Source of the DNA: Propionivibrio limicola
GTDB lineage: Bacteria > Pseudomonadota > Gammaproteobacteria > Burkholderiales > Rhodocyclaceae
Direction: 5' to 3'
NCBI RefSeq assembly: GCF_009469695.1
Contig: NZ_SSSR01000002.1
Coordinates: 248,001-312,000, forward strand
DNA: 64,000 nt
The notes under the pieces were generated by a model. It saw only the letters and a list, made by a program, of their open reading frames with translations. It did not search any database and was not told the origin of the DNA. The first letter of the stretch is position 1, and the number at the start of each line of letters is the position of its first letter. Positions 9,081 through 63,540 of the stretch are shown one piece after another. Made by a program: the position numbers and the translations under genes.

Positions 9081-9482
9081 TTAGAAAAGCGAAGGCTGCG
9101 CGGCGGCGTCTGGCTGTGCCGCAGGGATTGGCATGGCCTGGGCATCGAGCCAGCGCATGATGGCGGCCACGACGTGCGCTTGCTCTTCGGGCGTTAGCGC
9201 ATGGCCGGCGGGTATATCGTGCCATTTCGCCAGGCAGCCCCGGCAGCACGTCGCCGTGGCATGTTGGGCGATGAACACTGGGTGCCCGCGGAATGGTGTT
9301 TGCCGGCCGTCATTTTTTGGCTCCGCCGGCGCGAGTCGTTGCGCGACAAAAGCCCGTGCATGTTCCATGACCATTTCGCGTTCCTTGGCGATGAAATAGG
9401 CGCGTTCCTTCCGCTTCAGCGAGAAGCTTTGGCGGAAGCGGGATTGGGGCAGCGCGGCGAACAGCTCGTCAAGGTCGCGCAT
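9081..9482 (-). CDS. DUF4186 family protein
   Basis: A soluble protein of 133 residues. The central part, with FIAQHATATCCRGCLAKWH and the preceding RFRQSFSL segment, matches my memory of DUF4186, whose members are small proteins of unknown function with a conserved Cys-x-x-Cys. Here the Cys residues form a CCRGC cluster, possibly a metal site. I chose ATG 9482; TTG 9491 three codons earlier is equally possible because neither has a clear ribosome site. It follows the DUF1015 gene by 22 bases on the same strand and is probably co-transcribed. The C-terminal 25 residues are Ala/Pro/Gln-rich and probably disordered. Confidence 0.8.
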   Translation of the reverse strand: MRDLDELFAALPQSRFRQSFSLKRKERAYFIAKEREMVMEHARAFVAQRLAPAEPKNDGRQTPFRGHPVFIAQHATATCCRGCLAKWHDIPAGHALTPEEQAHVVAAIMRWLDAQAMPIPAAQPDAAAQPSLF

Positions 9483-9504
9483 ATCAATCAACGAATGCGA
9501 ATAC

Positions 9505-57621: not shown

Positions 57622-58107
57622 CAAGTTCCCCCAAGCACAATAATCATGTCGGGAAGTCTCAACTCGCCGTAAAGGCCAAATTAAAGCCGCCCGACACTCC
57701 AACCGAGAACGGTTGGTTCCGGATTTCGATCGGGAGTTTTGAGCAACGCCCCCAGTTCCCGTCATTTATCGGCAGGGGGCTGTTCTGCTTGTGTGCTTTG
57801 CCCCATTCACCAAGCCGTCGATGCAACTGAGTAAATGCTTTGCGGAAAGAACATCGTACCGACGGCCGCCTCTTGCAGTATAAATTTGGAAATTGGATAT
57901 TCAAGCACCAAGAATTGCCCAAGGGGCGTAGAGGCTGATGCGGTCTGTTCAGCGAGTCGCAGATAACACCTGCGACCAGCCGTTCTTCCTCCTCGATGGG
58001 TGGAATGTGCCTTATGGGTTCCAGCAGTCGCTGGTTCAGAATGGCGGTCCGGAGTTGGCTTGTGCAACTGTTGGGCACCTTTTGAGTTCGGGGCCGAAAA
58101 ACAAAAA
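57622..58107. other. gene-poor stretch of about 490 bases
   Basis: No supported gene. A leftward open frame of 139 codons (57659-58078) has an unusual composition and matches no family I know. The section coding LRTAILNQRLLEPIRHIPPI looks mildly protein-like, so a decayed gene is possible. It includes the promoter region of the DUF3300 gene at its left end. Confidence 0.35.
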
Positions 58108-58127
58108 GGCCAATCCGAAGATTGGCC
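58108..58127 (-). terminator. terminator of downstream tRNA-Arg copy
   Basis: GGCCAATC/GATTGGCC, eight perfect pairs with a TTCG loop on the minus strand, followed by TTTTTGTTTTT on that strand. Confidence 0.92.
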
Positions 58128-58144
58128 TAGCTGTTTGTTCTATT

Positions 58145-58221
58145 TGGCGCGCCCGGAGCGATTCGAACGCCCGACCCCTTGGTTCGTAGCCAAGTACTCT
58201 ATCCAACTGAGCTACGGGCGC
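58145..58221 (-). tRNA. tRNA-Arg(ACG), copy 1
   Basis: 77 bases with encoded CCA. Acceptor GCGCCCG pairs with CGGGCGC. The anticodon loop CTACGAA gives ACG, which reads CGN after A34-to-inosine editing. Identical in sequence to the second copy at 58279-58355. Confidence 0.97.
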
Positions 58222-58241
58222 GCTGCACAGAAATCCAAAAA

Positions 58242-58261
58242 AGCCAATCCGAAGATTGGCT
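58242..58261 (-). terminator. terminator between the two tRNA-Arg copies
   Basis: AGCCAATC/GATTGGCT with TTCG loop on the minus strand followed by TTTTTTGG. Nearly identical to the terminator after copy 1, so each tRNA has its own terminator. Confidence 0.9.
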
Positions 58262-58278
58262 TGAATGTTTGATCTGAA

Positions 58279-58355
58279 TGGCGCGCCCGGAGCGATTCGA
58301 ACGCCCGACCCCTTGGTTCGTAGCCAAGTACTCTATCCAACTGAGCTACGGGCGC
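58279..58355 (-). tRNA. tRNA-Arg(ACG), copy 2
   Basis: 77 bases, same sequence as copy 1 including CCA and anticodon ACG. The preceding terminator and tRNA are duplicated as one unit of about 134 bases. Confidence 0.97.
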
Positions 58356-58471
58356 GCTGCACAGAAGCTGCGCATTCTACTGCAGGTTGTTTGGTTCTTG
58401 CAAGTTTTTTGTGGTTTTTATTTCTTTATTGGGCGGCTTAAGTTTTTAGTTTTTGCGACCAAGAAAACAGG

Positions 58472-58520
58472 TGGCCTCCCCGACAGGAATCGAACCTGTA
58501 TCTCACGCTTAGGAGGCGGG
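58472..58520 (-). other. attachment-site scar: 3' fragment of tRNA-Arg(CCT)
   Basis: On the minus strand the stretch reads CTCCTAA anticodon loop, GCGTG, AGAT, then T-arm ACAGG-TTCGATT-CCTGT, CGGGGAG, discriminator and CCA. This is a tRNA from the anticodon loop to its 3' end. The preceding bases do not make a proper 5' half; four of five anticodon-stem positions still pair. Together with the integrase 103 bases away, this indicates an att core. Confidence 0.8.
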
Positions 58521-58622: not shown

Positions 58623-59642
58623 ATGGCATCTTTTCGACAGCGCGAGAGCGGGTTTTGGCAGGCTATTGTTCGGCGAAAGGGGCATCCAGAGGAGTCGAGG
58701 ACTTTTCGAATTCGGAGCGAGGCCGAGGTATGGGCGCGCGAGGTCGAAAGCAAAATCGACAAGGGAGTTTTTGTTTCGACCTCGGACGCGGAGCGGACGA
58801 CGTTCGATGATTTGCTCGAGCGCTTCAAGACCGAGTTTGGCCCGTTCCATTATCGTGAGCGTGAGGACGGAAATGAAACTTGGCGCTTCCAGTGCAGGTG
58901 TCTGTCCCGGTTCTTTGGTCAGTACGCGCTTTCGGCAATCGATCAGAAGCTGATTGTCCGTTTCCGCGAAGCGCGGCTTTCGGGCAACGGTAGTCGCCGG
59001 GCGGTGGGAGAGAGCACGGTCCGGAAAGAGCTTTACATGCTCTCCAAGATCCTTGGGTTTGCGGAAACCGAGTGTGGCATCACGTTGCCGCGCGGGAACC
59101 CGGTCGCGAAGATCCGCAAGCCGCGTGATAGCCGGTCGCGGGATCGTCGTTTGACAGCGGCCGAGTGGGACGCTCTTGAATGCGAATGCAGAAAGAGTCG
59201 TAATCCGTGGCTGGCCTCCGCACTGACGTTCGCCGTTGAGACAGCGATGCGCCAGGGCGAAATGTTGTCGCTTGAGTGGCGGCACGTCGACAAGCAGCGC
59301 CACCTTGCGATGCTGAATGAGACGAAGAATGGGGAGGCTCGCGCGGTTCCTCTTTCCAGTCGTGCGCTGGAAGCCCTAGGAGGGTTGCCGCGCGATCTGA
59401 AGGGGAGGGTGTTCCCGTGCGAACGTTTGACGCTTACACGGGCCTTGACGCGTGCTTGCGCGCGTGCCGGGATCAGCGACTACCGCTGGCACGATCTTCG
59501 TCACGAAGCGCTTTCCCGTCTGGCTGAGCGCGGGGATTTCTCTGTGTTGGAACTGGCTGCGGTTTCCGGGCATAAGACGTTGCAGATGCTCAAACGGTAC
59601 ACGCATTTGCAGGCTGAGAAGTTGGCTCAGAAACTAGGTTGA
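58623..59642 (+). CDS. int: tyrosine-type site-specific integrase
   Basis: 339 residues. The phage-integrase catalytic set is complete: Arg210 (TAMRQGEML), Lys in the NETKNGEARAVPL hairpin, His290 and Arg293 (WHDLRHEALS), His317 (SGHKTLQ) and Tyr326 (KRYTHLQ). N-terminal arm-binding segment opens MASFRQRESGFWQAIVRRKG and a core-binding SAM-like domain follows. ATG 58623 has GGAGG close upstream; an extended frame through the tRNA region is not coding. It probably recombines at tRNA-Arg(CCT). Codon use is less GC-skewed than neighbouring core genes, consistent with transfer. Confidence 0.95.
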   Translation: MASFRQRESGFWQAIVRRKGHPEESRTFRIRSEAEVWAREVESKIDKGVFVSTSDAERTTFDDLLERFKTEFGPFHYREREDGNETWRFQCRCLSRFFGQYALSAIDQKLIVRFREARLSGNGSRRAVGESTVRKELYMLSKILGFAETECGITLPRGNPVAKIRKPRDSRSRDRRLTAAEWDALECECRKSRNPWLASALTFAVETAMRQGEMLSLEWRHVDKQRHLAMLNETKNGEARAVPLSSRALEALGGLPRDLKGRVFPCERLTLTRALTRACARAGISDYRWHDLRHEALSRLAERGDFSVLELAAVSGHKTLQMLKRYTHLQAEKLAQKLG

Positions 59643-59672: not shown

Positions 59673-59951
59673 ATGATCAAGTCGTTCGAACACAAGGGGC
59701 TCGAAGCGTTTTTCAGGACGGGGAGTAAAGCGGGCATTCAACCGCATCACGCTAACCGGCTTCGCCTGCAACTGACCATGCTTGATAAAGCGCGGGAGCC
59801 CAAGGATATGAATGCTCCGGGGTGGAGACTGCACGGCTTGAGCGGTGATTTGGCAGGATTTTTCTCGATTACGGTGAACGGTAACTGGCGAATGACGTTC
59901 CGGTTTGACAACGGGGATGCCGTGCTAGTCGATTATCAGGACTATCACTGA
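59673..59951 (+). CDS. higB: HigB-type toxin
   Basis: 92 residues of the RelE/HigB ribosome-dependent mRNA interferase family. Pattern: MIKSFEHKGLEAFFRTGSK at the start, RLRLQLTMLDKAREPKDMN, GWRLHGLSGDLAGFFSITVN and the final strand pair NWRMTFRFDNGDAVLVDYQD. It starts 30 bases after the integrase stop. Toxin-first order is typical of higBA. Stabilises the element. Confidence 0.92.
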   Translation: MIKSFEHKGLEAFFRTGSKAGIQPHHANRLRLQLTMLDKAREPKDMNAPGWRLHGLSGDLAGFFSITVNGNWRMTFRFDNGDAVLVDYQDYH

Positions 59952-59961
59952 GGAGGTTGAT

Positions 59962-60246
59962 ATGAGCAGAATGCACAATCCGGCGCATCCCGGTGAATTG
60001 CTCAGGGAATGGATCCCGGAAGGAATGACAGTAACGGAAGCGGCGTCACAACTCGGCGTCTCGCGCGTTATGCTGTCGAAGATATTGAACGGCAAGGCCG
60101 GGGTTACGGCGGATATGGCTTTGCGACTATCTGTCTGGCTTGATACTACCCCGGAGGTATGGATCGACATGCAGGCTGCGTGGGATCTGTGGCAGGCAGA
60201 GCAGCGCGGATTGCCTGACGTTAAGCCGTTGCGGATGGCTGCGTGA
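59962..60246 (+). CDS. higA: HigA-type antitoxin
   Basis: 94 residues with an XRE-type helix-turn-helix: NPAHPGELLREWIPEGMTVT, ASQLGVSRVMLSKILNGKAG and DMALRLSVWLDTTPEVWIDM, all close to HigA. It starts ten bases after the toxin stop with GAGGAGG-like sequence before the ATG. It should neutralise HigB and repress the pair. Confidence 0.93.
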   Translation: MSRMHNPAHPGELLREWIPEGMTVTEAASQLGVSRVMLSKILNGKAGVTADMALRLSVWLDTTPEVWIDMQAAWDLWQAEQRGLPDVKPLRMAA

Positions 60247-60342
60247 TTTTGGGGCCAGTTAGGGCCAAAAAAGTCTGAAAATCGCGTTGAGATCGTCATT
60301 TTCGACGATCCACGCGCGGCGCGAGTGAGGTACGATAGGGGC

Positions 60343-60786
60343 ATGAATTGGATGCAATGTCTCTCCCTCTCCCTCTCTGAGCAGCGCGGCTTCGGCGCCG
60401 AGCGCGTCGCGACCGAGCGCTTTTTTGCGGCGCTTGCAGTCGGCAGTGTGGTGCTTGCTTTTTGCATGTTTGGCGTGGCTGCTATTGCAGTTGCGCTGAT
60501 TGTCATAGTCGCGTTTGTTGTTCGCTCTTGCGCGGCAGGCGGCGCGTCGGTCTTGCGGCGCGGCATTGCAGCAGTCGACAGCGCGCAAAGGGCTGACCGG
60601 TCGGCGTCGCGCGGCATTATTTTCTGCACAATTTCTTTTTCATTCTCAGCACTCCGCGCGTTTTGTGCTGCTTCGCTCCTCGCTGCAGAGCGGATTTATG
60701 GCGATGTATTGTTAGCTCACGTCGCTCTCGCCCCGCGTCAACTCCCCACGCCCCGCGCCTCCCGGCGCGGAGCGCTGCTGCGTTAG
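60343..60786 (+). CDS. possible small membrane protein, weakly supported
   Basis: A 147-codon frame starting ATG 60343 with AGGGGC before it. One strong hydrophobic region (about 30-60: FAALAVGSVVLAFCMFGVAA and following Val/Ile-rich residues) would span the membrane. The second half is Ser/Ala/Arg-rich and less protein-like. No family recognised. Located between higA and the AlpA-like gene, where 608 bases otherwise hold no gene. May be spurious. Confidence 0.35.
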   Translation: MNWMQCLSLSLSEQRGFGAERVATERFFAALAVGSVVLAFCMFGVAAIAVALIVIVAFVVRSCAAGGASVLRRGIAAVDSAQRADRSASRGIIFCTISFSFSALRAFCAASLLAAERIYGDVLLAHVALAPRQLPTPRASRRGALLR

Positions 60787-60854
60787 GGGCCGCCCGCCTC
60801 GTCTCCGCGCCGGAACTTTTTACCCGGCGGCCTCGCTGAAAAAGTGAGGCAAAA

Positions 60855-61178
60855 ATGCATTTTCCTATCGATTTTCCGGCTTTCGCCGGCCTGCGCATCT
60901 GCGCGCAGTTTCTCGGTTTATCCTACTCGCATATTAGAAAAATAACATACGACCAGCGCCCGGCGCCGGCTGGCTGGCCTGCGCCGGTGCGGGTTGGCGG
61001 CAAGGTCGGCTATCTCAGGCACGACCTCGAGCGTTGGCTTGATTCGCTCAGCAGCGCCGCTGATCAGGTGTCTGCTTGCCCTGGCGCGCCGGCGCAGCAG
61101 GCCGCTGAAACGCCCCCTCCGCGCCGCCGGGGGCGGCCGCGGAAACTTGAGTCCGCCGCGCGGGGGGCAAAAAAATGA
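60855..61178 (+). CDS. AlpA/excisionase-like regulator with C-terminal AT-hook
   Basis: 107 residues. Residues about 13-62 form a MerR/AlpA-type winged helix: FLGLSYSHIRKITYDQ, then APVRVGGKVGYLRHDLERWL. The tail has Pro/Ala linker and RRRGRPRK (about 90-97), an AT-hook core (GRP), which is unusual for the family. Likely controls excision or expression of the element. Its stop overlaps the next start as ATGA, so translation is coupled to the sigma-like gene. Confidence 0.75.
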   Translation: MHFPIDFPAFAGLRICAQFLGLSYSHIRKITYDQRPAPAGWPAPVRVGGKVGYLRHDLERWLDSLSSAADQVSACPGAPAQQAAETPPPRRRGRPRKLESAARGAKK

Positions 61179-61648
61179 ACGACTTTGCCCTGATCAAAAA
61201 ATATGCAGGAATGATAAAAAAGATCGCGCGCGAGGAAAGTTTTTTGGATGGCGATGACGATTTGATGCAGTCGGCATTTTTGCAGCTGCTTGAATGCAAA
61301 GGTAAATTTGATTCGGACCGGGGCGCGAGCTTTGCGACGCGCTGGCTGAGTTTGCTGCGCTTTGATTTGCGGCGGCAGGTAGCTGGTGGGCGGTATGGGG
61401 TAGAGCTGGATGCGCCGGACGTCGAGAATGAGTTGTCTGCGCAGGACCCACGGGACGTTGAGCGCTGGCGGGTCGCCGAATTGGACGACGAGACGGAGCG
61501 GCTCTGCGCAGCGCTGCGCGAGGCCGACACTGCCTACATCGCGCAGCGTCGCGGCGTGACGCGGCGGCGTGTGCAACAGTGCGTCGCGAGGCAGATTGCG
61601 TCGATTGCCTGCGGCGGAGATCTTTTCGCGGTGGGGTGGGGGCGATGA
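61175..61648 (+). CDS. small sigma-70-like protein on mobile element
   Basis: 157 residues. The N-terminal half (ALIKKYAGMIKKIAREESF, then DDLMQSAFLQLLECKGKFD and SFATRWLSLLRFDLRR) resembles sigma region 2: a helix contacting core polymerase followed by the DNA-melting helix. The C-terminal half ends with a helix-turn-helix (YIAQRRGVTRRRVQQCVARQ) in the place of region 4. The two are joined by an acidic linker (ELDAPDVENELSAQDPRDVE). It is shorter than most ECF factors, so it may be a reduced or inactive variant. Coupled by ATGA to both neighbours. Similarity is by pattern only. Confidence 0.65.
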   Translation: MNDFALIKKYAGMIKKIAREESFLDGDDDLMQSAFLQLLECKGKFDSDRGASFATRWLSLLRFDLRRQVAGGRYGVELDAPDVENELSAQDPRDVERWRVAELDDETERLCAALREADTAYIAQRRGVTRRRVQQCVARQIASIACGGDLFAVGWGR

Positions 61649-62640
61649 GAGCCGAATCTCGCCCCCACCCCACCCATCTTTGGACATCGCCGGATGTCCA
61701 GGCGCTCCCAATCTCCCAGCGCAGGATGTTGGAATACCTCTGGACCGGGCCGGACGTCAGTGGTGCGGGCGTCACCGTCATCGAACTCGGCGTTTTTCAG
61801 GCGCGCTTAGGCGAAATTAGTGCGTCGGTGAACAACTGTTTATCATTCCTTGAGCAGGCGGATTTTGTCGTGTGCGACAAAACGACCAGCGAAGTTTTTG
61901 TGCTCGACTGGTTCCGATTCCACAAATTCAATTCGGCCGTTGGCCAAGCCGCTTACGCCAAAGGATTGAGAATGATTCACAGCAAAAAAATCCGCGTCAT
62001 CATCGAGGAGCGTTTCCGCCTGGCCGGATACAAAACAGAGTGTCCTGTGTATAACTTAACCAAAATCCAAAAGAAACAACGAGGTAAGTCACCAACGCCA
62101 ACACCAACGTTAACCCCAACTCCAACCACCACCTGCACCGCAGGTGGTGGTGTCTTTGGCATTTTTTACGAGTCAGCAGGGCGACCAGACTGTCTGGTCG
62201 CCAGGGCTAAGGATCTGGGCAAGGTACTCGCTGCTGCAGGCGAGGAGCAGGCCCGCTGGGCCGGAGCAGCGTGGCGCGCGACCGTGGGGGCGGGCGCTGC
62301 TAAAGACGCCGAAGCCCTCGCGGTCGCGCTTTGCAAGCACGCCGCCGAGGGGAGGATGAGCCGCCCTGCGGCAATCGCTGCCGCCGAAAAAATGGAAGCG
62401 GCCCGCAAAGTCCGGGCAGGCGCCGATCGGCGCTACGCAGAGGCGCTCGCCGTACCCCCGCCCGGCTTCGTCGCGGGCGGCGACGAAGCCGGTAAAAGTC
62501 TTGTCGGCAGATTTTTGTCCACCCCGGCCGGAGCCGGGCCGATAAGTGTAGCCGGCGCGATCATCGGCAAAAAAATCGTCCCGCTGTCCGTGATTGCCGA
62601 CGAGATCCGCGCCGGGAAAATGCGACTAATTGATCCATAG
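61645..62640 (+). CDS. replication-initiation-like protein with tandem PT linker
   Basis: 331 residues starting ATG in the sigma-like stop (ATGA). Residues about 20-125 look like a winged-helix DNA-binding domain as in phage replisome organisers: LPISQRRMLEYLWTGPDVSG, NNCLSFLEQADFVVCDKTTS and HKFNSAVGQAAYAKG. A linker of repeated Pro-Thr units (PTPTPTLTPTPTTT near 153-166) joins an Ala-rich helical domain (WAGAAWRATVGAGAAKDAEA) and a positively charged end. No catalytic motif recognised. Probably element replication or partition. Confidence 0.55.
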   Translation: MRAESRPHPTHLWTSPDVQALPISQRRMLEYLWTGPDVSGAGVTVIELGVFQARLGEISASVNNCLSFLEQADFVVCDKTTSEVFVLDWFRFHKFNSAVGQAAYAKGLRMIHSKKIRVIIEERFRLAGYKTECPVYNLTKIQKKQRGKSPTPTPTLTPTPTTTCTAGGGVFGIFYESAGRPDCLVARAKDLGKVLAAAGEEQARWAGAAWRATVGAGAAKDAEALAVALCKHAAEGRMSRPAAIAAAEKMEAARKVRAGADRRYAEALAVPPPGFVAGGDEAGKSLVGRFLSTPAGAGPISVAGAIIGKKIVPLSVIADEIRAGKMRLIDP

Positions 62641-63336: not shown

Positions 63337-63390
63337 TATTTTCCAAATTCCGGGTTGGTTAGGGTATGCCAAGGGCACACTATAGCGAAT

Positions 63391-63438
63391 GTTTTGCGTT
63401 GTTTTGCGTTGTTTTGCGTTGTTTTGCGTTGTTTTGCG
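63391..63438. repeat. 10-bp tandem repeat
   Basis: GTTTTGCGTT four times in a row from 63391 plus a partial fifth copy to 63438. It lies in the 204-base gap between two leftward genes, upstream of the secreted-protein gene. Perfect copies suggest recent expansion. Confidence 0.95.
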
Positions 63439-63540
63439 GGGCCTTGATCCTCAACTTATTGCGATTCTGCACTCAACAAGTGGATTTGCTTGATAGGATC
63501 GTCCAACGGGCGGTTCTATCCATTGAGCAGGGCGGCGTTG

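Follow-up and report, generated by a model that had tools for sequence, protein, structure and literature searches.

Sigma factors of mobile elements are already known. The late sigma factor gp55 of phage T4, which works with gp33 and the clamp gp45, belongs to the region-2 sigmas and carries a clamp motif at its C-terminus (excerpts of PMC2988020 and PMC9690074), and it resembles the protein described here in being small, in having region 2, in belonging to a mobile genome and in ending in a short conserved motif. The nearest plasmid case found in the literature is SigN (ZpdN) of the Bacillus subtilis plasmid pBS32, likewise a sigma factor of a mobile replicon that is tied to replication (hyperreplication depends on SigN), and the available part of PMC6751061 states that SigN does not directly activate repN. 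A link between an excisionase-type regulator and a replication initiator, also found here, is known from regulators of the Pf4 XisF4 and P2 Cox type; for example, XisF4 activates PA0727, the initiator gene of Pf4 (excerpt of PMC7379572). The sigma-70 factors of ECF and FliA type (TIGR02937, PF04542) share with our protein a region 2 with the D-x-x-Q signature and, on weaker profile values, one 4.2-like helix-turn-helix (HTH).

Compared with these systems, the locus described here, which was found in a 64,000-nucleotide stretch of the Propionivibrio limicola genome (NZ_SSSR01000002.1, positions 248,001 to 312,000; hereafter the window), differs in the placement of a sigma-like gene between an excision-type regulator gene and a replication initiator gene. 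The trio is a real, recurring and optional module with a mobile-element sigma-like regulator. Unlike in T4 gp55, an HTH follows region 2 in the trio protein, the gene sits in the replication operon of an integrated element, and the tails match the bacterial clamp motif in part, the clamp link being a possibility suggested by QLGLF and GDLF. Whereas SigN has been demonstrated to be a sigma factor and is controlled by LexA, the trio gene overlaps rep and its sigma role is predicted. In contrast to XisF4 and Cox, alpA and rep belong here to a single operon of overlapping genes; its AlpA-like protein has an AT-hook, and six of ten modules have the sigma-like gene between the two. The protein also differs from ECF and FliA-type factors, as it has only 157 aa, scores under the cut-offs, lacks a recognisable region 4.1 and carries an extra GDLF tail. 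Among the matches listed (titles and abstract starts), no AlpA-sigma-Rep operon was described in the open PubMed Central literature, which is weak evidence of absence because most subscription papers lie outside its scope.

All three genes are on the plus strand. The alpA-like gene (60855..61178, 107 aa; HTH_17, phrog_66) encodes an HTH protein with the AT-hook RRRGRPRK close to its C-terminus; the middle, mini-sigma-like gene (61175..61648, 157 aa) resembles sigma factors by Sigma70_r2, TIGR02937 and profile comparison; and the replication-initiator-like gene (61645..62640, 331 aa from ATG) matches phrog_3171, 'replication initiation protein', with E 3.6e-9. With the chosen ATG starts, both joints are ATGA. 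Such overlap calls depend on the chosen start codons, and the rep frame is open upstream to a GTG at 61579, which would give 353 aa if that start is used. Overlaps of four bases are frequent in bacterial operons; what places the trio beyond chance is the recurrence of the same gene order in five other genomes of the family. Given the chosen starts, the middle gene and rep overlap in all six trios, and alpA and the middle gene in five of the six. Through these overlaps the three products would be co-expressed. An earlier reading of this DNA from the letters alone (the sequence-only reading) had claimed overlaps at both joints, an AT-hook regulator ahead of a sigma-like gene, a replication-like third gene and a location on an integrated element, and each of these claims was borne out.

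Upstream of the trio lies a 608-bp stretch (60247..60854) with GC-rich inverted repeats, in which no gene was recognised and which is a candidate control or origin region. A search for an iteron-like array or repeats upstream of the trio gave nothing convincing, and a promoter and terminator scan returned 3 and 11 sites, compared with shuffle means of 1.5 and 7.9. The sequence-only reading had also proposed to look for a common unusual promoter motif upstream of element genes; none was found across the six alpA upstream regions, where shared dyads reached at most two of six, while 20 shuffles gave two (19 times) or three (once).

The element carrying the trio is 11.9 kb long and is flanked by 47-bp copies of the 3' end of tRNA-Arg(CCT). 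These direct repeats lie 11,865 bp apart, attL at 58472..58518 and attR beyond the window (G000:C22:318337-318383, window-equivalent 70337-70383), inside an intact tRNA-Arg(CCT) gene. A tyrosine integrase gene (58623..59642, plus strand, 339 aa; PF00589, E 1.1e-22) adjoins attL, and integrase and att repeats together mark this as an integrative element. Next come, as cargo, a toxin-antitoxin pair with a higB-like toxin gene (59673..59951, plus strand; PF05015, E 2.3e-21) and a higA-like antitoxin gene with a Cro/C1-type HTH (59962..60246, plus strand; PF01381, E 8.3e-8), then the trio, and then a TraI/RecD-like helicase part (L011:6809-8851, window-equivalent 64809-66851), in which domain search recognised no relaxase domain. 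No relaxase domain or coupling protein was found among the element proteins scanned (part of the ORFs), and the start site for its own transfer may have been lost. Its genome holds one full copy of the middle protein.

The middle protein consists of a sigma-2-like part (residues ~5-57), a linker, a 4.2-like HTH (~105-145) and GDLF at 148-151. The sequence-only reading had given it both a region 2-like and a region 4-like end; the former stands, and of the latter a weakly supported 4.2-like HTH is left. Profile search, which that reading had proposed, found a Sigma70_r2 match (Pfam PF04542, E 1.9e-4, 21.6 bits; curated cut-off 24 bits) and a sigma70-ECF match over residues 6-139 (TIGR02937, E 2.5e-7, 30.5 bits; curated cut-off 42.9 bits), so that sigma-2 and ECF similarity was detected with both scores under the curated Pfam and NCBIfam cut-offs. 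In its own genome, the protein is the last of seven sigma-2 places and the sole one under the cut-off. Comparison by phmmer with FliA chains gave 1.2e-3. An hhalign comparison with 11 sigma-like proteins, six of them encoded in the same genome and five others, gave 95%, and the best of 40 shuffles gave 3.8%. A region 2 HMM scored 24.3 bits on it, which none of 1000 shuffles reached (best 5.3), and residues 5-55, over which it aligns, take in the D-x-x-Q helix, the contact to core RNA polymerase in sigma factors. By profile comparison, the window protein is securely homologous to sigma region 2.

Region 4 gave weaker values. A four-row C-terminal profile placed the 4.2-like HTH at 25.1% (60 shuffles, ≤1.4%), and the region-4 set was matched at 8.6-8.9% with five to seven full rows and at 0.4% with four rows. 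At this level of similarity, region 4 is confined to the 4.2-like HTH, and neither 4.1 nor a full region 4 is recognisable. AlphaFold models of low confidence (pLDDT 46 and 42.6) contain three N-terminal and three C-terminal helices with a linker between them, the layout expected of sigma regions 2 and 4. A Foldseek search with such a model gave no match at E 0.001, and because the models are of low confidence this result speaks neither for nor against a sigma fold; the four sigma-factor entries among the best 50 of 61 matches at E up to 10 were not counted as evidence. From the homology we infer that the middle protein could act as a sigma factor, binding core RNA polymerase and recognising promoters.

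Taken singly, the other trio proteins carry much less of this signal. None of the five gave a Pfam or NCBIfam sigma match, the scores of the G067, G248 and G560 proteins were reached by 291, 133 and 88 of 1000 shuffles, and hhalign gave 0.2% for G067 alone and 2.1% for the G248-G560 pair. When the six trio proteins and that of G363 were combined, the seven-row profile matched the sigma set at 95.1%, with an alignment running from region 2 into region 4. Genome G363 contributes a 212-aa sigma-like protein that shares region 2 and the linker with the window protein (N-terminal z 12) and whose sigma score was reached by none of 1000 shuffles. Without it, six rows gave 18.4% (full set), 55.0% (region 2) and 8.9% (region 4). 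Removal of both the window and G363 proteins left a five-row profile with weak matches in the right two places, 53.4% at region 2.2 and, for the full set, 57.7% at the 4.2 position, and four rows (G672, G451, G248, G560) gave 5.4%, 25.0% and 0.4% for the full, region 2 and region 4 sets, so the percentages vary with the choice of rows. In the controls, 60 shuffles per target stayed at ≤1.8% for the six- and five-row profiles (≤0.8% for the five-row profile on the region 2.2 and 4.2 targets), and control profiles of AlpA, integrase, HigA and Rep gave ≤1.1% with any of the three query profiles. We take the whole middle-protein family to be sigma-derived, with less assurance than for the window protein.

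The trio order was found in six genomes (the window genome, G067, G248, G560, G672 and G451). Searches with the middle protein in samples of the order (399 genomes), the family (395) and G248 relatives (101) led to the trios of G067, G248 and G560, and a class sample (369) returned the window's own genome only. Rep searches, made within the family and relatives only (297 genomes with phrog_3171, 140 G597 relatives, 28 of the window's own genus and 116 G451 relatives), added the trios of G672 and G451 and the middle-less pairs of G597, G757 and G426. All ten alpA-rep modules fall in the window's own family; the genome samples overlap, and therefore no frequency can be given for the trio. Since four of the ten (G597, G757, G426 and G363) are without the middle gene, the three-gene order is not fixed: the middle gene is optional in the alpA-rep modules of integrated elements, and these four do without it in that position. 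In G363, rep follows alpA directly; 5.6 kb further downstream comes the sigma-like gene (L021:8224-8862), placed ahead of a TrwB-type coupling gene, and the stretch also includes a TrwC relaxase. G597 lends itself to close comparison: its integrase is 43% identical to that of the window element, the N-terminal part of its Rep is very similar, and over the 34 kb covered there neither the models of six and seven rows nor earlier ones found a sigma-like gene.

Several other matches were set aside. In the order sample (9 matches), L004-L007 and L010 are ordinary sigma factors by eye and L009 has no trio; in the family sample (5 matches), L016 lies opposite a GGDEF/EAL-like gene by eye. Of the 4 matches in the 297-genome phrog_3171 sample, L025 was judged by eye to lack an upstream alpA and L027 stops inside, and L051 (of 4 matches among G451 relatives) is a second rep-like gene in G248 with no trio. 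Relatives of the middle proteins or Rep were sought in viral contigs, plasmids and phages, and nothing was found; GTDB contigs gave nothing with the window middle protein and solely the G067 contig with Rep. Among 149 G363 relatives, the G363 sigma-like protein found only itself.

Conjugation genes were sought at six of the ten modules, the window included, and lie near five of them. TrwC relaxase and TrwB are found in G560 and G363, a MobA-type relaxase in G597 and coupling-type ATPases in G067 and G248. Nine of the ten modules (all but G426) were checked for tRNA genes, and eight, with the window att copy counted, have one at a distance of up to about 7 kb, the G451 stretch being the exception. 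Element ends were fixed for the window element only. The tRNA beside the module is tRNA-Ser(GCT) in G248 (L019) and G672 (L046), and tRNA-Arg(CCT) in the window genome (L011) and G757 (L047). In G560, two large genes (ATPase-like and methyltransferase-like by eye; L020:10640-15382) lie between integrase and alpA, a position that equals that of higBA in the window and is possibly a cargo slot.

The window AlpA-like protein matches HTH_17 under the cut-off (E 0.025) and phrog_66 with E 5.3e-4, and the gene at the alpA position in G248 matches HTH_17 above the cut-off (2.7e-10) and TIGR01764 excise (1e-7). A GRPRK-type AT-hook is present in seven of the ten AlpA proteins. The window Rep-like protein looks mosaic, its N-terminal part being close to the proteins of G597 and G757, which belong to pairs without the sigma-like gene, and its C-terminal part to that of G067.

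We propose that the trio serves as the operon for replication and control in a family of Rhodocyclaceae elements that integrate in tRNA genes and are of the integrative conjugative or mobilizable kind, and that the middle gene encodes a mini-sigma steering the host polymerase, an explanation to which we give about an even chance. The AlpA-like protein would bind element DNA with the aid of its AT-hook and, by analogy with Pf4 XisF4 and P2 Cox, promote excision and activate the operon, and translation would run on through the overlaps. The middle product would be a fast-evolving mini-sigma of the sigma-70 superfamily, whose region-2 helix bundle would dock on the beta' coiled coil of the host RNA polymerase core and, with the 4.2-like HTH, direct the polymerase to element promoters; the initiator made from the same mRNA would replicate the excised circle. 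Somewhat doubtful, and clearly behind this proposal, is the explanation that the protein descends from a sigma factor and is now an ordinary HTH regulator of the alpA-rep operon, such as a KorA-like repressor or an accessory replication factor, with region 2 vestigial or a scaffold. The parts that the middle proteins clearly have in common are indeed the C-terminal HTH and the GDLF tail: the similarity of the G067, G248 and G560 proteins to the window protein is located there, with N-terminal similarity near chance (z 2.4, 1.8 and -0.5), and of the nine columns that do not vary in the six-row alignment, four are GDLF. The HTH also has a weak KorA (TrfB repressor) match (E 0.12). However, region-2 homology remains clear in the proteins of the window and of G363, and a profile of the other five rows still puts region 2.2 in its right place. 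A further explanation, that the window element is a decaying remnant in which the middle gene is idle, is the least probable of all; the single full copy in the genome and the lack of a relaxase domain or coupling protein among the proteins scanned, with a TraI-like helicase part remaining, agree with it, but the three reading frames of the trio are all open and overlap one another, and the integrase frame is intact, as are both att copies.

It is unlikely, if more probable than decay, that the mini-sigma is bound by its GDLF/QLGLF tail to the host clamp and works only where the element replicates, as T4 gp55 does with gp45. The strongest new finding concerns this tail: GDLF followed by 5-6 residues forms the C-terminus of all six trio middle proteins, and among 922 distinct ORFs (at least 100 aa, all frames, 53 loci plus the window), exactly these six have GDLF among their final 12 residues. 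They amount to fewer than six independent cases because the proteins are related, those of G248 and G560 closely. The bacterial clamp motif is QL(S/D)LF or, more widely, Q-aliphatic-x-[LM]-[FL], with a Gln that is important for affinity yet not essential (excerpts of PMC11139829 and PMC4549789). The very C-terminus of the sigma-like protein of G363 is QLGLF, which is a canonical beta-clamp motif and the only full match, and the G451 tail is QGDLF. The window tail, GGDLF, does not match; Gln is missing from five of the six tails and Gly stands at position 2 in all six, and substitution of Gln, or of Leu at position 2, reduces clamp affinity (excerpt of PMC11139829), whereas the host DnaE motif QVSLF has its Gln. 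A lone terminal match also means little, since the one other terminal Q-x-x-[LM]-[FL] among the 922 ORFs, QPSLF, ends another ORF of the window (9081-9491, minus strand, 136 aa). In the low-confidence AlphaFold models the tail follows the last helix as coil, and the middle gene adjoins the replication gene; by analogy, this suggests a clamp-linked mini-sigma comparable to T4 gp55, but the motif could serve a different partner. That a sigma co-operonic with the initiator and tethered to the host clamp would switch on transfer and excision genes only during element copying seems to us correspondingly improbable. The QLGLF end in G363 and the GDLF tails are a lead only, the tail being invariant and unexplained.

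The trio and the tail hint that such elements may tie their own gene expression to their own copying. The presence of the middle gene in some modules and its absence in close relatives offers a natural comparison, with and without the gene, of how expression and replication are coupled. If the tail binds the clamp, replication-coupled sigma action would have an example outside phages, and its mechanism could be tested in an ordinary laboratory host. Two further observations concern the surroundings of the trio. Just outside the left end of the element, two tandem tRNA-Arg(ACG) genes (58102-58366) lie in a 131-bp duplication (93% identical), and at 63386-63440 a short tandem run of TTTTGCGTTG-type units, noticed by eye, lies upstream of a predicted minus-strand gene.
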